Shown here in pieces: positions 361 to 12,544 of a stretch of 20,614 nt of DNA. Below the pieces are notes generated by a model that saw nothing but the letters and a program-made list of their open reading frames with translations, was not told the origin of the DNA and made no database searches. Origin of the DNA: a virus; the IMG/VR virus record IMGVR_UViG_3300009093_000139, positions 1 through 20,614 of that record; one strand, 5' to 3'. The translations under genes and the position numbers were made by a program. Position 1 is the first letter of the stretch. Every line of letters begins with the position of its first letter.

Positions 361-831
361 TTATTCCTTGTCCAAGAATTGCCAGAACATCAGTTCCGTG
401 GCCTTGAAGCCTGCAGCCTCCAGAAGGGGGCCGGCATATTTCGCATGGCGGGTCTTGATGCCGATCTGCATCAGGTTGGCGCCGCGTCGTTTGCATTCCT
501 TCTTCCAAGCCTCGAACAGCAGCGAGCCGCCATGGAGACCGCGAAGATCCGGCGTCACGTAAAAAATGTCTGTCGTCGCCGTGAGGCAGCCCTGGTAGTG
601 CATGCCTGGAGCGATGAAGGAAACGAGATAGCCGATCAGGTCTCCGTCTTCGCGCAGGGTGACGTAGATGACCTGCCCCGCCGATGAGCGGGCGAGATAG
701 AGACCGTACTGCGGGTCCAGCGGGATGCCCGCCGCCTTGTGCTCTGAGAGTTCGTCATAGTGGCCAGGAAGAAGCGGTTGGACCTCGGCAAGCGTGATTT
801 CGTTGAGAGGTTCAATCTGGACACTGAGCAT
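361..831 (-). CDS. GNAT-family N-acetyltransferase in the tail operon
   Basis: This 156-residue protein has the size and layout of a single GNAT domain: an N-terminal helix-rich part, strand segments around residues 54-60 and 65-73, and the acetyl-CoA pyrophosphate loop region DLRGLHGGSLL at about 95-105, matching the R/Q-x-x-G-x-G/A signature. A final strand follows, with GFKATELMFWQFL near the C-terminus. GNAT enzymes move acetyl from acetyl-CoA to amines. The substrate is unknown. The start is ATG at 831, which shares its A with the TGA stop of the upstream hydroxylase gene (TGATG). A TTG at 846 is possible but lacks a better ribosome site. Similar acetyltransferases are known next to internal virion protein genes in podoviruses, so a role in modifying virion or host proteins is plausible but inferred. 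Confidence 0.75.
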   Translation of the reverse strand: MLSVQIEPLNEITLAEVQPLLPGHYDELSEHKAAGIPLDPQYGLYLARSSAGQVIYVTLREDGDLIGYLVSFIAPGMHYQGCLTATTDIFYVTPDLRGLHGGSLLFEAWKKECKRRGANLMQIGIKTRHAKYAGPLLEAAGFKATELMFWQFLDKE

Positions 832-1388
832 CAGTCGCACCTGCAATCGATTATGAGCACCAGCCGATCGTCGGCTGAATGGTTCTGAACCCAGTGCTCG
901 ACTTTGTTGTTGATGTGCCAGACATCGCCAGCGCGGAACGTCACGGACTCATCCCCGATGTAGAAAACCGCGCCCGGCAAGCACTGAAGCGCCACCATGT
1001 ATCGTTCGAAATAGGTTGCTGGCGCCCCACCATCTACATGCGGCGTGATGGTCTTTCCCGGCGGCAGCTTCGTGATTATCACGCGACCGAGACGGGTTGC
1101 CTCAACGGTGCGCATGAGATCGAAGACGATCGGCCGCAACTGGGGCAGTTTTTCCCAAGCTGGGTAGGCGATGCATTCCTTGTCATCGGTGATTGTCGTC
1201 GGGTCACCGGTACGTTCATACTCCGCGATGTCGTTGAACCGGCAAAGGATGTCGCTTACCTCGGCGTGAGCGGTGCCGGGATGCTTGGTGCGGATCGGAT
1301 GTGCATTCCATAGCTCTGGCTGGCGCTGCAATGCGCTGAGCAGCGGCGTGACATTGAGCCCAGCCGCGAGCTGCTGAAAGTTCTTCAT
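831..1388 (-). CDS. Aspartyl/asparaginyl beta-hydroxylase-like Fe(II)/2-oxoglutarate oxygenase
   Basis: This 185-residue protein carries a double-stranded beta-helix oxygenase signature. It has TPHVDGG at residues 116-121 (H117 and D119), a distal region WHINNKVEHWVQN at about 157-169 (H165 the likely second iron His), and R175 in RLVLIID, the expected position of the 2-oxoglutarate carboxylate anchor. Strand YMVALQCLPG and FRAGDVW fit the jelly-roll core of the AspH-like family, which hydroxylates amino-acid side chains using O2, Fe(II) and 2-oxoglutarate. The start is ATG at 1388 with AAGGA five bases upstream. The gene sits between beta-rich virion proteins and the acetyltransferase, with a stop-start overlap to the latter. 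Its target is unknown; virion proteins or host proteins are both possible. Confidence 0.8.
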   Translation of the reverse strand: MKNFQQLAAGLNVTPLLSALQRQPELWNAHPIRTKHPGTAHAEVSDILCRFNDIAEYERTGDPTTITDDKECIAYPAWEKLPQLRPIVFDLMRTVEATRLGRVIITKLPPGKTITPHVDGGAPATYFERYMVALQCLPGAVFYIGDESVTFRAGDVWHINNKVEHWVQNHSADDRLVLIIDCRCD

Positions 1389-2091: not shown

Positions 2092-2603
2092 CAGGTAATC
2101 CCTGTGCCCGAGATGCGCCAACGGGTAGCGGCGACCTTAAGCGCCGTCGCCTGCCCCCCAGACGCTATCGTACGTGCACCAGTCGATCCCGTTCCAACTA
2201 AAACCAGCGTGTCATTTGTGATCGCAATCGTTATCGCCCCCGCACCGATATCATTATCGAACGTAACAGCCGTGCCGATCTCAAATGCCACCGATGAATT
2301 GGCCGGGATTGTCCATGTCCTGGGCGTGGTATCAGACGGAGGATGGTAGATATGCTTGGCGCTATCGGTGAGTACCAGAGTGTAATCCGAGATCTGAATG
2401 TTCTGCCGGATAAGTGATGAAAGCTGCGGGTCGTAAGCCTGGATCGTCACGCCGATTTGCGACGAGATATCTCCGCTACCTGCGGCGGAAACCAGGTTGT
2501 TGAAGAACCGGAGCCATCCCGGTGCTACATAGCTTCCATTGACGACGAGAGGATCGCCCGACTGCGGGATTATCGGCGTTCCCGGCTGCGATTTGTCTGC
2601 CAT
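2091..2603 (-). CDS. Putative tail fibre or minor tail protein
   Basis: This 170-residue protein begins with a Pro/Gly-rich segment (TPIIPQSGDPLV) and has GWLRFFNNLV at about 28-37, a pattern common at the start of short phage tail proteins. Its C-terminal two thirds form a beta-rich module containing YTLVLTDSAKHIYHP at about 74-88, RTWTIPANSSVAFEIG at 94-109 and a final TRWRISGTGIT. I recognise this module from the C-termini of phage tail fibre and neck-appendage proteins. The start ATG at 2603 lies in a TGATG overlap with the gp10-like gene, and AGGAAA lies upstream. The exact role (fibre, adaptor or tail needle replacement) cannot be decided. Its place after gp10 is where P22 has the tail needle gene 26, but no long coiled coil is seen. 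Confidence 0.7.
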   Translation of the reverse strand: MADKSQPGTPIIPQSGDPLVVNGSYVAPGWLRFFNNLVSAAGSGDISSQIGVTIQAYDPQLSSLIRQNIQISDYTLVLTDSAKHIYHPPSDTTPRTWTIPANSSVAFEIGTAVTFDNDIGAGAITIAITNDTLVLVGTGSTGARTIASGGQATALKVAATRWRISGTGIT

Positions 2604-4567
2604 CAGGAAGCGGCTTTCCTGATTTCGACCCAAGCTCCGTTCAGAGGGTTGCTCACGGGCGCCGACCAGGACAACTCGAAAACCCGGTCCCGAGCGATGC
2701 CGAGTTTGCGCCATTGGGGGGAAACGAGATATTCGCCTGTGGCCCCCATTGGCCTCAAGACTGGATTGCCGAAAGTTGCACCGCGATCATCGCTCCATCG
2801 CAGCGAAATCATCGGGGGATTGTCTAGTGTGGTCCCCGGTGTCTGGCCAACCTCGACATCGGCCACAAAACGGATGTATTCGACGCGGTTGCTGTCCTGC
2901 CCAACAAGATGAGGGAGCGTGCGAATTCTCGGGATCGACGTGGTACCGTCGAAATAATAATTCTGGTCAAAAACGTAGAGCGTACCGTTTTGGAAATCGC
3001 CCACATGACCTTCACCATAGGCAAACGCGAAAGAGTTTCCGCGATGGCGATTCAGAACGCCGTTACCATCCAGCGATCCGCGCTCGTGCCATTGTTTCGA
3101 AGCCAATTCATAGGCCCACGTCTTGTTCGCCGTGGGAAAATTAAGAATATAGAAGGCGTGCCCATCGATTTGGTGACAGTAACCGATCGCGTCATCGATC
3201 TTTGAATAAGATTGAAACTCAGCTTCAATGGCATGAGTGGAAACGCGCTCGACGGCATAGCCGGAACTCATCGCCACTATGGCGTTGCCCTGCCTGTCCT
3301 GGGTTAGCCAGAACATGGAAACGTCTTGCTGGGATAGAGAATATGGCGCCACGCAACCGTGATTGATGAAGGCTCCTTGGATTCGTCCGAACGTGAAATC
3401 TGCAGCGCCCGTGTTGGCCCAAATCTCCGAGGTCAATTCTCCGATCAGCCACAACTCGCCATGGATAGCCGCAAGACATTGAATGTTGTCGGCCGCACCT
3501 GTTTTTCCTGCAATGTCCAGCGGATCAAAGGCATAGCCATGAACGAAATCGACCGTGTAGACAAAGCCCCCAGTCACGAGAGAAACGATCCACGTGAAAC
3601 CTGTTCCGGTGCCACCGATCGATGCTGCTGTAGCGGACAGACTATCGTTGACCTTGTACCCAGAGCCGGCCGTGGTGATTGTCACTGACGAGACAACGGC
3701 ACCGGACACGACGATGGTTGCCTTCGCGCCCGTTCCCGATCCACCGGTCAGAGTAACGTTGGTATAGGTGCCGTTGGTGTAGGTCGCCCCAGACGAGCCG
3801 ATCGCGCCTGCCTTGACTGCTCCGGGCGTTCCAGGGGTGGTTGAGGTGAGCGTCAGCGTGTCATTGACAGCGTAGCCGGTTCCTGGTGCGTTGATCGTTG
3901 CGACGGTAATGATCCCGCCAGCTACCGTTAGATCGGCTGTAGCCCCAGTCCCCGTGCCGCCGGCAAGCGGAACGTTGGTGTAGGTGCCGTTCGTGTATCC
4001 GGCACCCCCAGAGACTATGGAGCCCTGATAAATTGCTCCCGGCGTTCCCGTCAGCATGGCGAATGTCACCAGGGACAGGGAGATGTAGAACTGGGCGGTG
4101 TTGGGCCGGTTGAAAATGAAGTAGGTATCGAGATAATCGACGCTCGTTGCGCCATAGAACGATGGGTCGGTGATCACTCCGAAGGCTCGCGTGACCATAT
4201 CCACAGCATAGCCCGTAGAAGTGCCATCTACGAAGATGATGACAAGGCCGTTGTCGGAGGCATTGACGATGTTGGTGCCGAAGGTAATGGTTCCTAGTAG
4301 TATCCAGATGTAGTCAGGTGAGACGAAATAGACCGAGCCGTTGATAACCGCGTAGAGATCGCCATTCGTGGCGCGGTAGGTGGTGCGATACCTGCCTACA
4401 ATCGGCGCTTGTGAAACGGGGCGAAGGCCAGGCGTCGGATAGTGGGTCACGGGAACTGGAGGTGACCCATCCGGTTCGTTGATTTCCGCATACAGATTTA
4501 CTGAGCGTTGCGCGCCAGCAACCAGGCTTCGTGACTGATAGGCGCCGCCGAGCAGGGGAATGCGCAT
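2603..4567 (-). CDS. P22 gp10-like packaged-DNA stabilization protein (tail hub) with repeat insertion
   Basis: This 654-residue protein starts MRIPLLGGAYQSRSL, followed by RSVNLYAEI and HYPTPGLRP near residue 47, and contains the later motifs GELWLIGELTSEIW and ALSxQD/FWLTQDRQGN. These are hallmarks of the P22 gp10 family, which forms the hub between the portal/gp4 ring and the tail needle and helps keep packaged DNA in the head. P22 gp10 is about 470 residues. The excess is explained by a Gly/Thr-rich tandem repeat inserted at about residues 172-333. Removing it leaves about 490 residues. The start is ATG at 4567, directly abutting the TAA of the gp4-like gene (TAAATG). The order gp4-gp10 is the same as in P22. 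Confidence 0.88.
   Translation of the reverse strand: MRIPLLGGAYQSRSLVAGAQRSVNLYAEINEPDGSPPVPVTHYPTPGLRPVSQAPIVGRYRTTYRATNGDLYAVINGSVYFVSPDYIWILLGTITFGTNIVNASDNGLVIIFVDGTSTGYAVDMVTRAFGVITDPSFYGATSVDYLDTYFIFNRPNTAQFYISLSLVTFAMLTGTPGAIYQGSIVSGGAGYTNGTYTNVPLAGGTGTGATADLTVAGGIITVATINAPGTGYAVNDTLTLTSTTPGTPGAVKAGAIGSSGATYTNGTYTNVTLTGGSGTGAKATIVVSGAVVSSVTITTAGSGYKVNDSLSATAASIGGTGTGFTWIVSLVTGGFVYTVDFVHGYAFDPLDIAGKTGAADNIQCLAAIHGELWLIGELTSEIWANTGAADFTFGRIQGAFINHGCVAPYSLSQQDVSMFWLTQDRQGNAIVAMSSGYAVERVSTHAIEAEFQSYSKIDDAIGYCHQIDGHAFYILNFPTANKTWAYELASKQWHERGSLDGNGVLNRHRGNSFAFAYGEGHVGDFQNGTLYVFDQNYYFDGTTSIPRIRTLPHLVGQDSNRVEYIRFVADVEVGQTPGTTLDNPPMISLRWSDDRGATFGNPVLRPMGATGEYLVSPQWRKLGIARDRVFELSWSAPVSNPLNGAWVEIRKAAS
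3602..4030 (-). repeat. Tandem coding repeat inside the gp10-like gene
   Basis: Two protein repeats of about 70 residues lie in tandem (residues about 180-249 and 251-322 of the gp10-like protein). Each contains YTNGTYTNV, then GG-T/S-GTGA, a T-x-I strand, and G-x-GY-x-VND-x-L. At DNA level the segments around 3745-3780 and 3972-4000 share long runs such as GTTGGTATAGGTGCCGTT versus GTTGGTGTAGGTGCCGTT. Such Gly-rich modules occur as inserts in other phage tail proteins. This one probably forms a surface beta domain on the hub. Confidence 0.85.
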
Positions 4568-5287
4568 TTACTGGCTGCCCCAGCCGTCGCTGTAGATATT
4601 GTAGCTTCCGCCTCCAACCAATGCGCGCGGCATCTGTAGTAGCGGGATCTGCGCATTTGTATTCTTGATGGTGTTCAGTGCGACCTTAGCCAGACCAATC
4701 AGGCTGGCATCAGGCGGCAATTGATAGGCAACGCGCAGCCGCACGGCGAGGTTTAGGCGGATGGCCTCTTCGTACTCCGGAGGTAGATTGAAAGCGGTGT
4801 TAAGGGTCGGGAAGCTTTGCAGCGCCGGCTTGACCGACAGATGCATCTCATAATTGGCATCCGGAACCGGCCAGATGAAAATATTGCCGAGCGGAAAGGC
4901 GGAATCGTAGAACAGATGGGCCGGGAAAGATGCAAGGCCCTTCAATGCGACACGGTTATAGTCCTCACGCGCTTCCCATACTTTCAGCGGGAAATCAACC
5001 TCAAGGGGAGCCCCGGTCAACTGGCGAAAGAAAGCTGCCTCGATGCGGTCGGGACGAGCTTGAGGAATATCGCCGCCCGGACCGACCGAATAGGATAGCG
5101 CACCGGTGCCCGTAAATACGATGTCGATCAGGTGGAAGACCAGCCAGCGACGGCGCGACCATTGTGCAATCATCGCATTGAGGCGCGACAAAGCTTTGTT
5201 CGTATCCTCAGCTAGCGGAGTCTGGCCAACGCCGATAATGCCGGCATCGTCCATCGCATCCGTGATGAGGTCGAGCGCGGTTGTCAT
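4568..5287 (-). CDS. P22 gp4-like tail accessory / head completion protein
   Basis: This encodes 239 residues starting MTTALDLITDAMDDAGIIG, then LNAMIAQWSRRRWLVFHL near residue 37-54. The alternation of helix then beta and the later LPPEYEEAIRLNLAVRLR (about 170-187) are typical of P22 gp4-type adaptor proteins, which bind the portal after packaging and close the head. P22 gp4 is shorter (about 166 residues), but longer versions are usual in other podoviruses. The ATG at 5287 overlaps the previous stop by four bases (ATGA). Position directly before the gp10-like gene supports the call strongly. Confidence 0.85.
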   Translation of the reverse strand: MTTALDLITDAMDDAGIIGVGQTPLAEDTNKALSRLNAMIAQWSRRRWLVFHLIDIVFTGTGALSYSVGPGGDIPQARPDRIEAAFFRQLTGAPLEVDFPLKVWEAREDYNRVALKGLASFPAHLFYDSAFPLGNIFIWPVPDANYEMHLSVKPALQSFPTLNTAFNLPPEYEEAIRLNLAVRLRVAYQLPPDASLIGLAKVALNTIKNTNAQIPLLQMPRALVGGGSYNIYSDGWGSQ

Positions 5288-5508
5288 GGAACAACCTTAC
5301 GAGGCCTGCCCGGGCCGCGCTTTATGGGAGCGCCCGCCTCATCGAAGGTCTCCGGCTCGTCGTCGGCTTCGACCGCATCGGGTTCGGCTGCCACTTCAAC
5401 GGGCGCCCACGAAGCCACGGCATCCGCATGCTCCTGCTCATTGTTGACGATGAGCATTTCGCCCTTGGGCGGGTAGATAGCCATCGGATAGAGGATGATG
5501 TCAGTCAT
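5284..5508 (-). CDS. Small acidic protein with C-terminal AT-hook-like motif
   Basis: This 74-residue protein has a short hydrophobic start (MTDIILYPMAIYPPKGE), a long acidic Ala/Glu/Asp-rich linker (about 25-60) and a sharply basic end, KRGPGRPRKVVP. The GRPRK core resembles an AT-hook, a minor-groove DNA-binding motif. The gene overlaps both neighbours by four bases (ATGA at 5505 and 5284) and lies between coat and gp4. No function is known to me. A head-associated protein that touches packaged DNA is one idea and is inference only. Confidence 0.7.
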   Translation of the reverse strand: MTDIILYPMAIYPPKGEMLIVNNEQEHADAVASWAPVEVAAEPDAVEADDEPETFDEAGAPIKRGPGRPRKVVP

Positions 5509-5705
5509 TTGGCCTCTGGGATTTCGATTGAGAAAGTGGGCGGTGCGACTGCAGCCGTCTCGATGAACGGCTTGGGATTTGGCGGGAAGCGAACGTCAGA
5601 CTGAGCGTCGCCCCAGTCCGGGCCAATCTCGGCTTCTTCGGCGGGGCTCAGGACGAGCCGGAACTCACCGGTCATTTGATGGTAGCGTGCGAGAGGGTAT
5701 CGCAT
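5505..5705 (-). CDS. Small hypothetical protein downstream of coat
   Basis: This encodes 66 residues from ATG at 5705 (MRYPLARYHQMTGEFRLVLS), followed by an acidic stretch and a Pro-rich middle (RFPPNPKPF), ending SIEIPEAK. It is translationally coupled to the next gene by ATGA. The start is uncertain. A TTG at 5741 would add twelve residues, but its first codons would lie across the hairpin that follows the coat gene. An ATG at 5675 is also possible. No strong ribosome site is seen for any of them. I do not recognise the family. Confidence 0.6.
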   Translation of the reverse strand: MRYPLARYHQMTGEFRLVLSPAEEAEIGPDWGDAQSDVRFPPNPKPFIETAAVAPPTFSIEIPEAK

Positions 5706-5712
5706 GGAAATA

Positions 5713-5734
5713 GGGGCGACCCGAAAGCCGCCCC
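5713..5734 (-). terminator. GC-rich hairpin just after the coat gene
   Basis: A perfect six-base-pair stem GGGGCG/CGCCCC (5713-5718 with 5729-5734) surrounds a ten-base loop, ten bases beyond the coat stop. On the minus strand it is followed by TATTTCC, a poor T-tract. It may act as a weak terminator or as an mRNA 3' end stabiliser that lowers expression of genes beyond coat. Confidence 0.45.
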
Positions 5735-5744
5735 AATCCAATCG

Positions 5745-6965
5745 TCAGATCTTGTCGGCCAAGATGCAGACCCACTCGGGGCGCACGTAGAGGTAGCCGT
5801 ACAAAATATCGAGCCTCGTGGCGAGCTGGTCTGTGCCCATCACGTAGGCAGTGACCATGCGCATCGAAATGCCGTCGTAGTTTTGACGAGCAGCCTCGTG
5901 GACGCCCTTCGGGATCACGAGATCGGCCGTAGCCATCGTGATAGCCTTCGGGGCATAGGCGAGGTTCTTGCGGTAGGTTTCACCCGCCTTGCTGGCGAGG
6001 CGCATGACAGCCGCATTGGCCGGCGAAGCCGTGACAGTCTGGTACTGGACCTGGTTGCCGCCCGAGGGGGGCGTCAGGGCCGGGTAGATCGGGATCACGG
6101 TCGCACCCGAAGCCACATTCGCAGTCACGACGAACTGCTGCAGTTTGCCCGTGGTGCGCTTGAACACGCGGTTCACCGCATAGACACCATCGAAAGTGAT
6201 GATGTCGCCCTTGTTCAGGGTTCCGGTGATCGCCGCCACGGTAATCGACGTTCCGGTCTGGTTGGCGCCACTGACAGTGCCAGACGCCGAATCATAGGTG
6301 CCAGTCGTGTGCTTGACGACCGTCTGATCCATGTAGAAGTCGAAGCCCAGAGCGTTCTTCATCTGGCCAGACTGGTACTGTTCGGAGATCTTCTGCGACG
6401 GATTGAACAGACCGGACAGGGTGGAGACGATGTTGGCTTCGGTCCACGGGTCCTGCACAACCTTGAGGCCAGGCTGCATCGGAGCCGAGTTGTCTTTCAA
6501 CATCGCGCCGGCCTGCAGGATGGTTGCAGTGTTCGGCGAGATGACGTTGTTGGAGCCGTCAACGTTGGAAACGTAGCGGGCAGCGCCACCGTCCGAACCG
6601 CTCATGATGTCAGCCGCCGCATCACCTGCGAGGTTGTTCATCATGGGCATGATGTAACGCTCGGAATAATCGTCGATCTTCAGGGTGCGCTCGGCAGTCG
6701 AGAAGGCGATGTCCACACCAGACTGGCTCTGAAGCTTCAGCGAGGTGAAGGTTTCCGTGGTATCCTGCGCAGAAAGCGCCGGCCCGTGGCGAACGGTGTA
6801 GTCGTTGGGCAGACGGACGCGGACGGCATCGCCAATCTTGGCGCCATCGACTCCGAACTGGTCGTCGTACTGGGTGTCAAGATTCTTGATGAACATGTTG
6901 CTGTTCTTGAACAGCGCGACCGACGCCTGGGTCACTTTGTCGATCGTGAGAAGGGTATTGGCCAT
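5745..6965 (-). CDS. Major capsid (coat) protein, P22 coat family
   Basis: This 406-residue protein starts MANTLLTIDKVTQASVALF. It contains GDAVRVRLPNDYTVRHG at about 45-61, then a strand-rich stretch leading to VDIAFSTAERTLKIDD (84-99) and YSERYIMPMMNNLA. These are core signatures of the P22 coat (HK97 fold) family. A beta-rich segment at about 222-315 (GTSITVAAITGTLNKGD and onward) corresponds in place and content to the extra I-domain of P22 coat. P22 coat is 430 residues. The start is ATG at 6965 with AAAGGA nine bases upstream; an upstream in-frame extension to 6986 has no better ribosome site. It follows scaffold, as in P22, after a 162-base gap with candidate control elements. Confidence 0.92.
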   Translation of the reverse strand: MANTLLTIDKVTQASVALFKNSNMFIKNLDTQYDDQFGVDGAKIGDAVRVRLPNDYTVRHGPALSAQDTTETFTSLKLQSQSGVDIAFSTAERTLKIDDYSERYIMPMMNNLAGDAAADIMSGSDGGAARYVSNVDGSNNVISPNTATILQAGAMLKDNSAPMQPGLKVVQDPWTEANIVSTLSGLFNPSQKISEQYQSGQMKNALGFDFYMDQTVVKHTTGTYDSASGTVSGANQTGTSITVAAITGTLNKGDIITFDGVYAVNRVFKRTTGKLQQFVVTANVASGATVIPIYPALTPPSGGNQVQYQTVTASPANAAVMRLASKAGETYRKNLAYAPKAITMATADLVIPKGVHEAARQNYDGISMRMVTAYVMGTDQLATRLDILYGYLYVRPEWVCILADKI

Positions 6966-6981
6966 CGAAATGGTCCTTTCG
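6966..6981 (-). promoter_or_regulatory. Hairpin over the coat ribosome binding site
   Basis: In the mRNA the sequence CGAAAGGACCAUUUCG lies immediately before the coat AUG. It can fold into a five-base-pair stem (CGAAA/UUUCG) with the GGA of the Shine-Dalgarno site in a six-base loop. The stem is short and AU-rich, so alone it would be weak. It could be a protein-binding or stability-tuned translational control site. Confidence 0.35.
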
Positions 6982-6997
6982 GGCAAACAGGGGGGAA

Positions 6998-8853: not shown

Positions 8854-9138
8854 TCAGCGCCCGCCAGGATCGAGACCAAGCATGTCAGTCCAAACCCTGG
8901 TTGCTTCACGAACTCTTTCGATGGACAATTCCCCTCTAGCCACCTTGGCTGGCACCGCGGCCAGCGCTCGGTTCATGGGATTTAGACATCCATAGAGTTG
9001 GGTCATCATCTCAAATGTGCGGATATCGGCCTGCGTGACGTCACGCATCTCATCTAGGCTCAGATCGTACATTTGTGGGATAGCTGACGCCGCCTTTGGC
9101 TGACGAATTTCATCGGTGTGAACGTCGTACGCGGTCAC
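8854..9138 (-). CDS. Hypothetical phage protein (94 residues), GTG start
   Basis: The start is GTG at 9138, overlapping the portal stop (GTGA), with AGGA about eight bases upstream, which decides the start. The sequence has SLDEMRDVTQADIRTFEMM near 27-45, a Met/Leu-rich helix, and ends in VWTDMLGLDPGGR. It is probably all-helical. No family is recognised. Tight coupling to the portal suggests it is made in the same translation unit. Confidence 0.65.
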   Translation of the reverse strand: MTAYDVHTDEIRQPKAASAIPQMYDLSLDEMRDVTQADIRTFEMMTQLYGCLNPMNRALAAVPAKVARGELSIERVREATRVWTDMLGLDPGGR

Positions 9139-11276
9139 TGCTGCATTCCTATATCTGGCTGCGGGGTTTGCGGTGGCATTGGCTGGCCCATAGGCGGCTG
9201 CTGTGACGCATCGGGCTGTCCGCCCTGCGGCGCCGCGTCCTGACCACCAAACTGCTCTGGTGAGCCTCCTGTGAGCATTTCCAGCAACACCTGACGAATG
9301 AGCGGCTGAATTTGCTCGGGAGAGATCGCTGGCCCAGAATTGCCGATAGCCGTGATGCGCTTGGTCTCGGAATCGAAGGCCTTGATGTTGATCTCCTTGT
9401 CCTTCTCGTCCAACTGCTGCTGCAAATGCACGATGGCGTCGTGCGCCTGCTGCAACTCACCTGTAAGCTGCTGGACTTCCGGAGGTGGTCCCTTCCCCGT
9501 GATATTGGCGGAAATGGTCTTTTCCCAACGTTCCGCCAACTCATCAGCCATCGGAAAATCAGCCGCTTTCCACAGCAGATCGCCGCCGATCTTCATGAAC
9601 TCAGGGCTTTGCGATGCAATCTGCGTCATCGCATTGAAAGCTTCCTGCCGGCGCGTCGCATAACCTGGCCCTACATCGCTCTCGACCTCGTAGCGGCCGA
9701 CATTCGGGTTGAAGATGGCGGTGACGGCCTGCTTGTCTTCCGGATCTGCCCCAGTATCCTGATGTGCAGTCGGCGCATTAGGATCGACTTGCACGGAACT
9801 CTCAGTGCCATCCTTCGCCAGAATACGAACAACCCGCTCCGTGTCGTAAATCTTCGGGATGAGATCGATCAGGATTTTCCCGATGTACTTGATGCCGACA
9901 GCCAGCCCGTCGATATAGTGATAGGTGGCGTTGTCGCCCTGGCGTTGGCGTTCGTTGATCGCCTTGCCTGATGTGGCGTTCTCGTTCTGGCCGAACTGGC
10001 TCTGATACTGGCCAGAGGCAATCATCATCTGGTTTTCGCAGATTTTCATGCCATCGATAAAGGCAGTTGCCATGATCGGTGGCTGAGTGCGTGCCGGCGC
10101 CGGAATCTGGTGGCCGTCCTCGCTTAGTCCGTTGTAGGGGATAATCGCGGCGTCATCGATATTCGACTTCGACCAGAACGTTTCCAACCCTTCAATCGCC
10201 TCAACGGGTGCCGTCCATGGTGTCTTGGTCTGCAACGCGACCTGAGCTGTGGCCTCGCTCGTCCAATAGTTGTACATCCGCTGCGCGTCTTTCATCGAGC
10301 GGGTATGACCCTTGCAGTCCATCTTGCCCTGGATGATGGTTTCCTCGCCGATCACGCGAATGATCGGGATGTATTTGCCCGGCCAGATGCGGCGATCGAT
10401 GATTTTGTTGCCGGCGATCTTGAACCACTCGACCTCATCGTTGACCACATCACGCTGATTGGTCGATGGATCGTTTTTCACTATCTCAAAGGCTTGCTTC
10501 TGGCCCTCATCCATCATGGATTTGCGGATGATCACCTGTTGCCCCGTGAGTGGGTCGATGAAAGCCACCAGCTTGTCAGCCTTCTGGCGCTTGCGGTAAT
10601 ATTCCGCGACCTTCACATCGTCCTTGTTGCACCAGGAATCGCCATTGCCGATGACCGACAGGCCGGCATCGTCCTTGAAATCAGGGTTTTCGACCTCGAA
10701 GCGATCGCGGCTCATGTCTTCGAATACAAAACCGAAGCGCGCATCCGAGCCATCAACCTCGGAAATACCCGGATCGAGATAGACAGCATCCGGATTTTTG
10801 ACGCGGCGGATGTAGATTTCCTGATCGAAGCTGTCCGAACTCACATAGTCGGTGACGACGCGAATATAGCCTCGGCCGCCCCACACCTGAAACGTGGTTG
10901 CCGTATCGTAGGCTTGCTCGGCGTTGGACTGATATTCGATATGGCGAACAACGCCCTCGAACACCTGAGAGGCTTCGTAGGTTGCGCCATCTCCAACGGG
11001 TCGGATGTTCACTCCAGGTTTATTTTGTTTCGCATCATTAATAATCTGGAGGTTGTGTTGGCGCACCTTGTTGATCGTCAGGCAGGGCTTGCGCTTGTCA
11101 TTGCGGGATTGTTGGAGATCGGTATCCCATTGCCAGCCGTTTTCGGGATCGGCATTGGCGAATTTCAGATCCTCAACGAAGCGCTTGCGGAATTCGGCTT
11201 CCCAGTCCTCGCACTCTTGGAAGCGCTCCTTGGCTTCCTTGATGATATCGTCGTCGCGCTCAGTCTCTTTGGCCAT
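9135..11276 (-). CDS. Portal protein, P22 family
   Basis: This 713-residue protein (P22 portal 725) begins MAKETERDDDIIKEAKERF, then has the hallmark WQWDTDLQQ followed by CLTINKVRQHNLQIINDAKQ at about 64-83 and IRPVGD near 91. Later parts include VYLDPGISEVDGSDARFGF and SGKAINERQRQGD. A helical segment with coiled-coil character (about 605-650) precedes a Gln/Pro/Gly-rich tail (about 663-713). The portal forms the dodecameric ring for DNA entry and exit and docks terminase. The ATG at 11276 shares its A with the TAA of the large terminase gene (TAATG); the in-frame TTG at 11288 is rejected. Order terminase-portal is as in P22. Confidence 0.92.
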   Translation of the reverse strand: MAKETERDDDIIKEAKERFQECEDWEAEFRKRFVEDLKFANADPENGWQWDTDLQQSRNDKRKPCLTINKVRQHNLQIINDAKQNKPGVNIRPVGDGATYEASQVFEGVVRHIEYQSNAEQAYDTATTFQVWGGRGYIRVVTDYVSSDSFDQEIYIRRVKNPDAVYLDPGISEVDGSDARFGFVFEDMSRDRFEVENPDFKDDAGLSVIGNGDSWCNKDDVKVAEYYRKRQKADKLVAFIDPLTGQQVIIRKSMMDEGQKQAFEIVKNDPSTNQRDVVNDEVEWFKIAGNKIIDRRIWPGKYIPIIRVIGEETIIQGKMDCKGHTRSMKDAQRMYNYWTSEATAQVALQTKTPWTAPVEAIEGLETFWSKSNIDDAAIIPYNGLSEDGHQIPAPARTQPPIMATAFIDGMKICENQMMIASGQYQSQFGQNENATSGKAINERQRQGDNATYHYIDGLAVGIKYIGKILIDLIPKIYDTERVVRILAKDGTESSVQVDPNAPTAHQDTGADPEDKQAVTAIFNPNVGRYEVESDVGPGYATRRQEAFNAMTQIASQSPEFMKIGGDLLWKAADFPMADELAERWEKTISANITGKGPPPEVQQLTGELQQAHDAIVHLQQQLDEKDKEINIKAFDSETKRITAIGNSGPAISPEQIQPLIRQVLLEMLTGGSPEQFGGQDAAPQGGQPDASQQPPMGQPMPPQTPQPDIGMQQ

Positions 11277-12544
11277 TAGGCAGCCCAACCTTGTGATCCT
11301 GAGACTTGACGGGGAAGCGTTGGCAGCTTGAGCTTACGTTCTTTGGCGCCATCCCTCATGCCAACCGCGAAGTATCGGGCGGCATCGGCAAAGTGCGAAG
11401 CATCGTCATGCAGCGGGTTTTTGGAGAACTGGCCCGTCACCTTATCGACCTCGTAGCGATATCTGCGGAGAGCCTGGAGGCCTTCATCGCAAAGCGTTTG
11501 ATCCCACCAGACTTGCGGGAAGATCGTCCGTAGCGCGTTGATGCCATCTTCGACCGAGAGCCTAGGAACAATCCGCACCGGCATTCCGCTGGCGCGCGTG
11601 ATTTCCTCGATGCTCTTGCCCGTCCCAAGCTGCGTTGCCTGTGCATCGTGAGGAAGCCAGACACCCTCAATGATGTAGCCGAACGACTGGATCAGGTTCA
11701 GGTAGAATGGCCAAGGTTTCTGCCGATCCTGAACCGCACGCAAAACCCTGTATTCAAGCCCTACACGCTGCACGAACCACAGCGAGGTATGGTCGGCCCA
11801 TCCAAGGTCACAGAACACGCTGACAGGCTTGCTGGCGTCATATGGCACACGACAGATGCGCTCTTGCTCCTGAGCCTGTCGCATTTCATTCGCGTAGATC
11901 GCGCCTTCAAGCGTCTGCCGACAGTTGCCCTCCCAGACATTGAGATAGGCGTCGATGTCACGTAGCTTGAGATCATCCTTTTCCTTACGAAGCACCTCGG
12001 GAAACCAAGGGTTGTCACGCCAGTTGATTTTCTCGACTATCGATTCAGTCGGCGGGTTTTTGACAAACCGCTGGTAGGTCTCGTCGGTCTCAAGTTCCGG
12101 ATTGAAGCTCACCCAAATTTCAGATCCATCCTTGCGAATGGTCGGGATGAGTTTGTCCCACGAGAAGGCGGAGACCATGTGGGCTTCCTCAACCCAAACG
12201 ATGTCGATGCCTTCCTTTGATTTGAGGCTGTCCACATTGTGACGCAGGCCGGAGAATATGAACTCGCTGCCCGTCAGCTTATGAATGATAGTGGTCTTCT
12301 GCACCTCGTACTGATCACCGAGGCCAAGGGCTTCGATCTGATCGACTAGGAGCTTGTGAACTGAATCCTGGATCGAGTTCTGAAACTCGCGAGCACAGAG
12401 GATGCGCTTGGTCTTCTGGGCTGCGATGATGAGAAGTGCCCGAGCGATTGACCACGATTTAGCGGACCCGCGCCCTCCCCATGCGACCTTGTAACGTTTA
12501 GGCTGAAAGAGGAACGCGAGCTTCTGCGGAAACTCTGCGCGCAT
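11276..12544 (-). CDS. terL: Terminase large subunit
   Basis: This 422-residue packaging motor has an N-terminal ATPase and C-terminal nuclease. The Walker A is GGRGSAKS at residues 23-30, Walker B is IDIVWVEEA at 113-121 with catalytic Glu, and the coupling motif SFNPE is at 146-150. The nuclease domain shows FCDLGWADHTS (D246, D251), LPHDA (D300) and HDDASHFADAARY (about D381 and D387), the acidic residues that bind metal in RNase H-like nucleases. It fits the PBSX/Terminase_3-like branch. It starts at ATG 12544 in a TAATG overlap with the small subunit and overlaps portal in the same way. Confidence 0.95.
   Translation of the reverse strand: MRAEFPQKLAFLFQPKRYKVAWGGRGSAKSWSIARALLIIAAQKTKRILCAREFQNSIQDSVHKLLVDQIEALGLGDQYEVQKTTIIHKLTGSEFIFSGLRHNVDSLKSKEGIDIVWVEEAHMVSAFSWDKLIPTIRKDGSEIWVSFNPELETDETYQRFVKNPPTESIVEKINWRDNPWFPEVLRKEKDDLKLRDIDAYLNVWEGNCRQTLEGAIYANEMRQAQEQERICRVPYDASKPVSVFCDLGWADHTSLWFVQRVGLEYRVLRAVQDRQKPWPFYLNLIQSFGYIIEGVWLPHDAQATQLGTGKSIEEITRASGMPVRIVPRLSVEDGINALRTIFPQVWWDQTLCDEGLQALRRYRYEVDKVTGQFSKNPLHDDASHFADAARYFAVGMRDGAKERKLKLPTLPRQVSGSQGWAA

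Follow-up and report, generated by a model that had tools for sequence, protein, structure and literature searches.

Fe(II)/2-oxoglutarate (2OG) oxygenases are numerous in phages, where most have been classed either as auxiliary metabolic genes or with DNA repair. The enzyme family considered here, PF05118, is known, and single phage homologues have been annotated as aspartyl/asparaginyl beta-hydroxylase (AspH) before. Two of these, ORF8 of Limnohabitans phage DC33 and a gene of Caudoviricetes ctXG1253 (record MW202665), are full-length homologues of the oxygenase described below, with 37.8% and 27.3% identity, respectively. In the available text of the DC33 paper, ORF8 is named aspartyl/asparaginyl beta-hydroxylase and classed by the authors as an auxiliary metabolic gene, and no discussion of a linkage to virion genes or to a GNAT-family acetyltransferase gene was found in that text (PMC12195039). 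AspH-annotated genes are also carried by pelagimyophages and cyanomyoviruses (PMC7029224, PMC3037559). Pseudomonas phage PfAn1 (PV364321), an isolate, has the same order of oxygenase, GNAT and ejection protein as our locus, and its oxygenase (~39% identity) is annotated only as hypothetical. Unlike in our locus, the DC33 oxygenase gene sits between TerL and a GNAT-portal segment.

Several members of the family have solved structures. L-proline cis-4-hydroxylase (PDB 4p7w) and cis-3-hydroxylase (PDB 1e5r and 1e5s), both in PF05118, have the same fold as the phage enzyme with the HxD...H...R residues aligned, and they include the top Foldseek match to our model. These enzymes act on free proline, share ~15-20% identity with the phage oxygenase and, at 280-290 residues, carry an extra C-terminal region, whereas the 185-residue phage protein stops at the core. 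They also differ in setting, the phage oxygenase being encoded among virion genes. Human AspH (PDB 5jqy) has the common PF05118 fold, and both histidines and the 2OG-binding arginine align with those of the phage protein. Human AspH, however, contains TPR and membrane parts that are missing from the phage protein, and acts on EGF-like domains.

An oxygenase gene between tail and ejection genes

The window, by which we mean the whole stretch of DNA analysed, is a 20.6-kb viral contig with its genes on the minus strand and in P22-type podovirus order: terminase, portal, scaffold, coat, SU10-type adaptor, head-closure protein Hc3, two probable tail genes, oxygenase, GNAT and first ejection protein. 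The P22-type portal (9135-11288; PF16510, E = 9e-157) and coat protein (5745-6986; PF11651, E = 1.1e-32) were readily recognized, as were the head-tail adaptor (4568-5287; Pfam SU10_adaptor and PHROG phrog_637, Ad3) and a 654-residue, P22 gp10-like Hc3 with a repeat-bearing insertion (2603-4567; phrog_578, E = 3.8e-93). A probable tail protein of ~170 residues (2091-2603) had only a weak PHROG match, and a second one of ~231 residues (1396-2091), whose family is unassigned, had no match in Pfam, PHROG or the phage collection.

The oxygenase open reading frame occupies exactly 831-1388, beginning with an ATG at 1388 and ending, after 185 codons, in TGA. A Shine-Dalgarno-like AAGGA at 1393-1397, read from the sequence, overlaps the TAA stop of the upstream gene (1398-1396). 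The stop codon of the oxygenase overlaps the start of the GNAT gene as TGATG (833-829), and the same overlap is repeated at the two preceding junctions, where the starts of the two probable tail genes overlap the stops upstream of them (2605-2601 and 2093-2089). The GNAT gene (361-831) adjoins the oxygenase on its downstream side and encodes 156 residues from the ATG at 831. It is followed by the first ejection (internal virion) protein, ej1, which is truncated where the window stops (1-354) and matches phrog_598, 'DNA ejection', as does its full-length relative in a close relative of the window (L010). Promoter and terminator scans near the oxygenase gene gave matches no more numerous than those in shuffled sequences.

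The first-pass annotation had placed the oxygenase between virion genes, and this arrangement bears it out, with tail-type genes upstream and GNAT and ejection-protein genes downstream. The tightly coupled GNAT, absent from that annotation, is the strongest local clue.

Two further features of this region were seen. The insertion in Hc3 spans approximately residues 181-336 and is made up of repeats rich in Gly and Thr, with matches to PHROGs for baseplate and tail-fibre proteins. In L010, a 177-residue open reading frame between adaptor and Hc3 (5195-5728) resembles a mobile HNH-type endonuclease.

Fold and predicted active site

The first-pass annotation had proposed an Fe(II)/2OG oxygenase at this position, to be checked by profile search and structure prediction, and both agree with the assignment. 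PF05118 (Asp_Arg_Hydrox) matched with an E-value of 5.9e-14 and 52.7 bits, against a curated cut-off of 22.6, and was also matched by all 45 homologues scanned. An AlphaFold2 model built on 42 homologues was confident throughout (pLDDT 94.6, pTM 0.90) and has the fold of a double-stranded beta-helix. The best structural matches were PF05118 enzymes (L-proline cis-4- and cis-3-hydroxylase, a nucleoside-antibiotic hydroxylase and human AspH), followed by other 2OG oxygenases, with Z-scores of ~14-15.7 to 2OG oxygenases. When the single protein was searched against the sequences of solved structures, no oxygenase was returned at a useful E-value; the alignment profile alone succeeded, with L-proline cis-4-hydroxylase as its best sequence match (E = 2e-10, covering residues 60-184 of 292 in 4p7w).

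The putative iron triad, H117, D119 and H165, and the 2OG-binding R175 are at the positions first proposed for them. Across the 198 homologous loci, H117 and D119 are invariant in all 196 sequences that cover them, and H165 and R175 in all 194. The predicted active site has the complete 2-His-1-carboxylate triad and follows the HxD...H...R pattern of the proline hydroxylases. An identity as AspH proper is not supported, since its His-x-Gly iron site has two histidines and no carboxylate, and the phage protein has an aspartate there. Because D119 pairs with a glycine in human AspH and with an aspartate in the proline hydroxylases, 'aspartyl hydroxylase' is to be read as a family name and not as a substrate. 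As originally applied to this gene it was too specific, the nearest solved enzymes being free-proline hydroxylases.

The oxygenase is under purifying selection comparable to that on adjacent structural genes: the median dN/dS over 25 pairs in the window lineage was 0.095, a figure that is approximate because many dS values are high, and the values for Hc3, the adaptor and ej1 were 0.06-0.17. The agreement of reading frame, family, residues, fold and context is far beyond chance, and the enzyme is probably catalytically active.

Recurrence among virion genes

Scans of viral contigs, genome contigs and a phage collection yielded the 198 homologous loci, and their neighbourhoods were obtained with a simple ORF-calling and clustering script. 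By clustering, a recognized virion or packaging gene lay within three genes of the oxygenase in 188 loci, and the addition of two type-E loci via PHROG brought this to 190; the genes in question were terminase, portal, head-closure or ejection genes. The remaining loci were mostly short or poorly resolved, with one (L092) clearly chromosomal. Six of the seven matches from genome contigs look like phage or prophage, L092 alone being in a non-phage setting. There, in a bacterial MAG, two adjacent divergent PF05118-like genes (L092:8770-10398) adjoin a gene for a probable sulfotransferase, an example of distant relatives in a cellular context.

About five layouts were found among the loci. Layout A is the P22-type order of adaptor, Hc3, tail, oxygenase, GNAT and ej1; it includes the window and PfAn1, and is over-represented because matches in the scan were ranked by query similarity. 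Layout B, of prophage type, runs from oxygenase to a 97-residue Cupin_2 protein and then ejection proteins, in many cases with lysis genes immediately upstream. In the DC33-type layout C the order is TerS, TerL, oxygenase, GNAT, a small gene and a T7-type portal, and in layout D it is TerS, oxygenase and TerL. Layout E, that of ctXG1253, has an internal virion protein, a 190-residue protein, the oxygenase, an ejection protein, a 534-residue protein and TerL. The oxygenase tree broadly tracks these layouts, grouping C with D, and A with B and E. Layouts A and B have ejection-protein families in common and may go back to a single origin. The oxygenase is not accompanied by the same virion gene throughout, because in DC33-type and L195/L199-type phages the genes next to the oxygenase are those for terminase and portal.

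Late genes make up about half of a 40-kb podophage genome, so in any one backbone a late position by itself has a fairly high probability of arising by chance and is modest evidence. The strength of the linkage to the virion module lies in its recurrence over backbones and in the coupled partner gene. From its position, the oxygenase is probably expressed late, together with the assembly genes. Distant PF05118 genes do lie outside virion modules, between uvsX and gp41 in cyanomyophage S-SM2 and beside a primosomal protein gene in Pseudomonas phage Itty13; the linkage is therefore a property of the close subfamily and not of PF05118 as a whole. Random placement across phage genomes, named in the first-pass annotation as an observation that would count against it, does not hold for the close subfamily, in which ~190 of 198 genes are near virion genes.

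Partner genes directly after the oxygenase

A GNAT gene is the next gene after the oxygenase in 109 of the 198 loci, in layouts A and C, although the two backbones (P22-type versus DC33-type with a T7-type portal) have little else in common near the oxygenase. The coupling is tight: in 92 of the 109, the first in-frame ATG of the GNAT is located 0-6 bases ahead of the point where the oxygenase stop codon ends. In layout B the place of the GNAT, directly after the oxygenase and overlapping its end, is taken by the 97-residue Cupin_2 protein (PF07883; 47 loci). This cupin (for example L110:8552-8845) carries the PHROG label 'tail fiber adhesin'. The oxygenase and the GNAT probably cooperate functionally.

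In Vibrio phage 1.209.O and ct2os315, GNATs of the window's family are found next to head-completion or stabilisation genes with no oxygenase alongside, and in phage PAE2 the slot immediately ahead of the ejection gene encodes a weakly GNAT-like protein. The T7 order of tail, gp13 and internal virion proteins is the same as the window's order of tail, slot and ejection proteins. In Cobaviruses, a GNAT adjoining internal virion proteins was suggested to correspond to T7 gp13 and to act in morphogenesis (PMC6775973); its location near internal virion protein genes is like that in the window, but no oxygenase partner has been reported for it. Identity of the window's GNAT family with T7 gp13 was rejected, as a profile comparison gave no match. 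A 186-residue protein preceding the ejection gene of Shewanella phage X14 was considered as a diverged oxygenase and likewise rejected after no profile match was obtained; it resembles a cupin-like 'tail fiber adhesin' PHROG and is a relative of the layout-B cupin.

Candidate targets of the modification

Since the oxygenase is conserved among DNA-injection genes and is usually followed by a GNAT, many short-tailed phages may chemically modify some protein at assembly. A virion protein as the substrate is our leading hypothesis. We tentatively favor an account, held at somewhat below even confidence, in which the gene product is a functional, soluble Fe(II)/2OG hydroxylase, made late and with the GNAT co-translated, that most likely hydroxylates a phage protein handled in assembly. 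The oxygenase would be transcribed late in the head-closure/tail/ejection transcript and co-translated with the acetyltransferase, and would hydroxylate a residue of an ejection or tail-connector protein during assembly, while the GNAT would act on the same or a neighbouring target. A broader proposal, which we hold more loosely, is that podophages carry a two-enzyme late cassette, a 2OG hydroxylase with a GNAT or cupin, that modifies a virion ejection or connector protein and so amounts to programmed particle hydroxylation.

Some P22-type phages (PAE2, P26218, X14 and Vibrio 1.211.A) have homologous genes for ejection and closure yet lack the oxygenase, which is therefore accessory and not essential for the ejection/closure apparatus. 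In a comparison with six control sequences, no conserved residue of ej1 separated oxygenase carriers from non-carriers, and all strongly conserved ej1 positions were common to the oxygenase-less relatives. A C1q-like tail domain (cluster 5), encoded near the oxygenase gene in two backbones, was rejected as a substrate because it is a modular tail domain present in only part of the loci.

The lack of a substrate signature in ej1 and the absence of the oxygenase from some relatives would also suit a host target, with the late genes carrying cargo: the oxygenase would hydroxylate a host protein, for example a ribosomal or envelope protein, and the GNAT would acetylate a host target. Accessory genes are common in such gaps, and the best NCBIfam match of the window's GNAT, though weak, is RimI. 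We consider a host target unlikely, as the late-module position has been retained across several backbones, late expression would come at a bad moment for taking over the host, and no relation of the oxygenase locus to known defence systems was found. Hydroxylation of a small molecule, such as a nucleoside, free L-proline or a different amino acid, would fit the nearest solved sequences and folds, with their same HxD motif. The identity to those enzymes is low, however, their C-terminal region is missing from the phage protein, no metabolic genes lie nearby and the gene is coupled to virion genes, all of which makes this quite unlikely. Late modification of the cell surface, for example of lipid A as by LpxO, could block superinfection or re-adsorption, and PF05118 includes LpxO. 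The NCBIfam LpxO matches are weak (E = 1e-4 to 5e-3), at ~16-21 bits against a cut-off of 500 (15.9 for the equivalog NF033391), the phage protein is shorter than LpxO (185 versus 297 positions), and the gene lies between tail and ejection genes, so we regard a surface role as very unlikely. The least probable alternative is an assembly chaperone that has kept the fold while its chemistry lost importance, because all four catalytic residues are invariant in ~195 divergent sequences, even though the gene is near the slot of T7 gp13, a virion morphogenesis protein encoded ahead of the internal core genes (PMC6775973).

A search of mostly open-access literature found no report of a late-module oxygenase subfamily or of such an oxygenase paired with a GNAT, and none of enzymes of this kind hydroxylating the virion proteins of phages. 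A subfamily that stays with assembly genes across several backbones, and has an acetyltransferase coupled to it, points to a role different from auxiliary metabolism or DNA repair, namely enzymatic modification in phage particle assembly or ejection, a little explored subject.

Two isolates that carry the oxygenase gene

The presence of the oxygenase gene in two isolated phages, PfAn1 and DC33, opens it to direct study. In PfAn1, the head-closure gene and a minor-tail gene (L001:7475-9611) have the opposite orientation to the other late-operon genes. The DC33 record (L002, PQ492659.1) is filed under Inoviridae, the filamentous ssDNA phages, although its genome is dsDNA of 39 kb and encodes TerL, a T7-type portal and major head and tail proteins. 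DC33 also has a single 9.4-kb gene (L203:5243-14620), encoding ~3,125 residues, between a tail-fibre gene and an internal-virion/endolysin-like gene.
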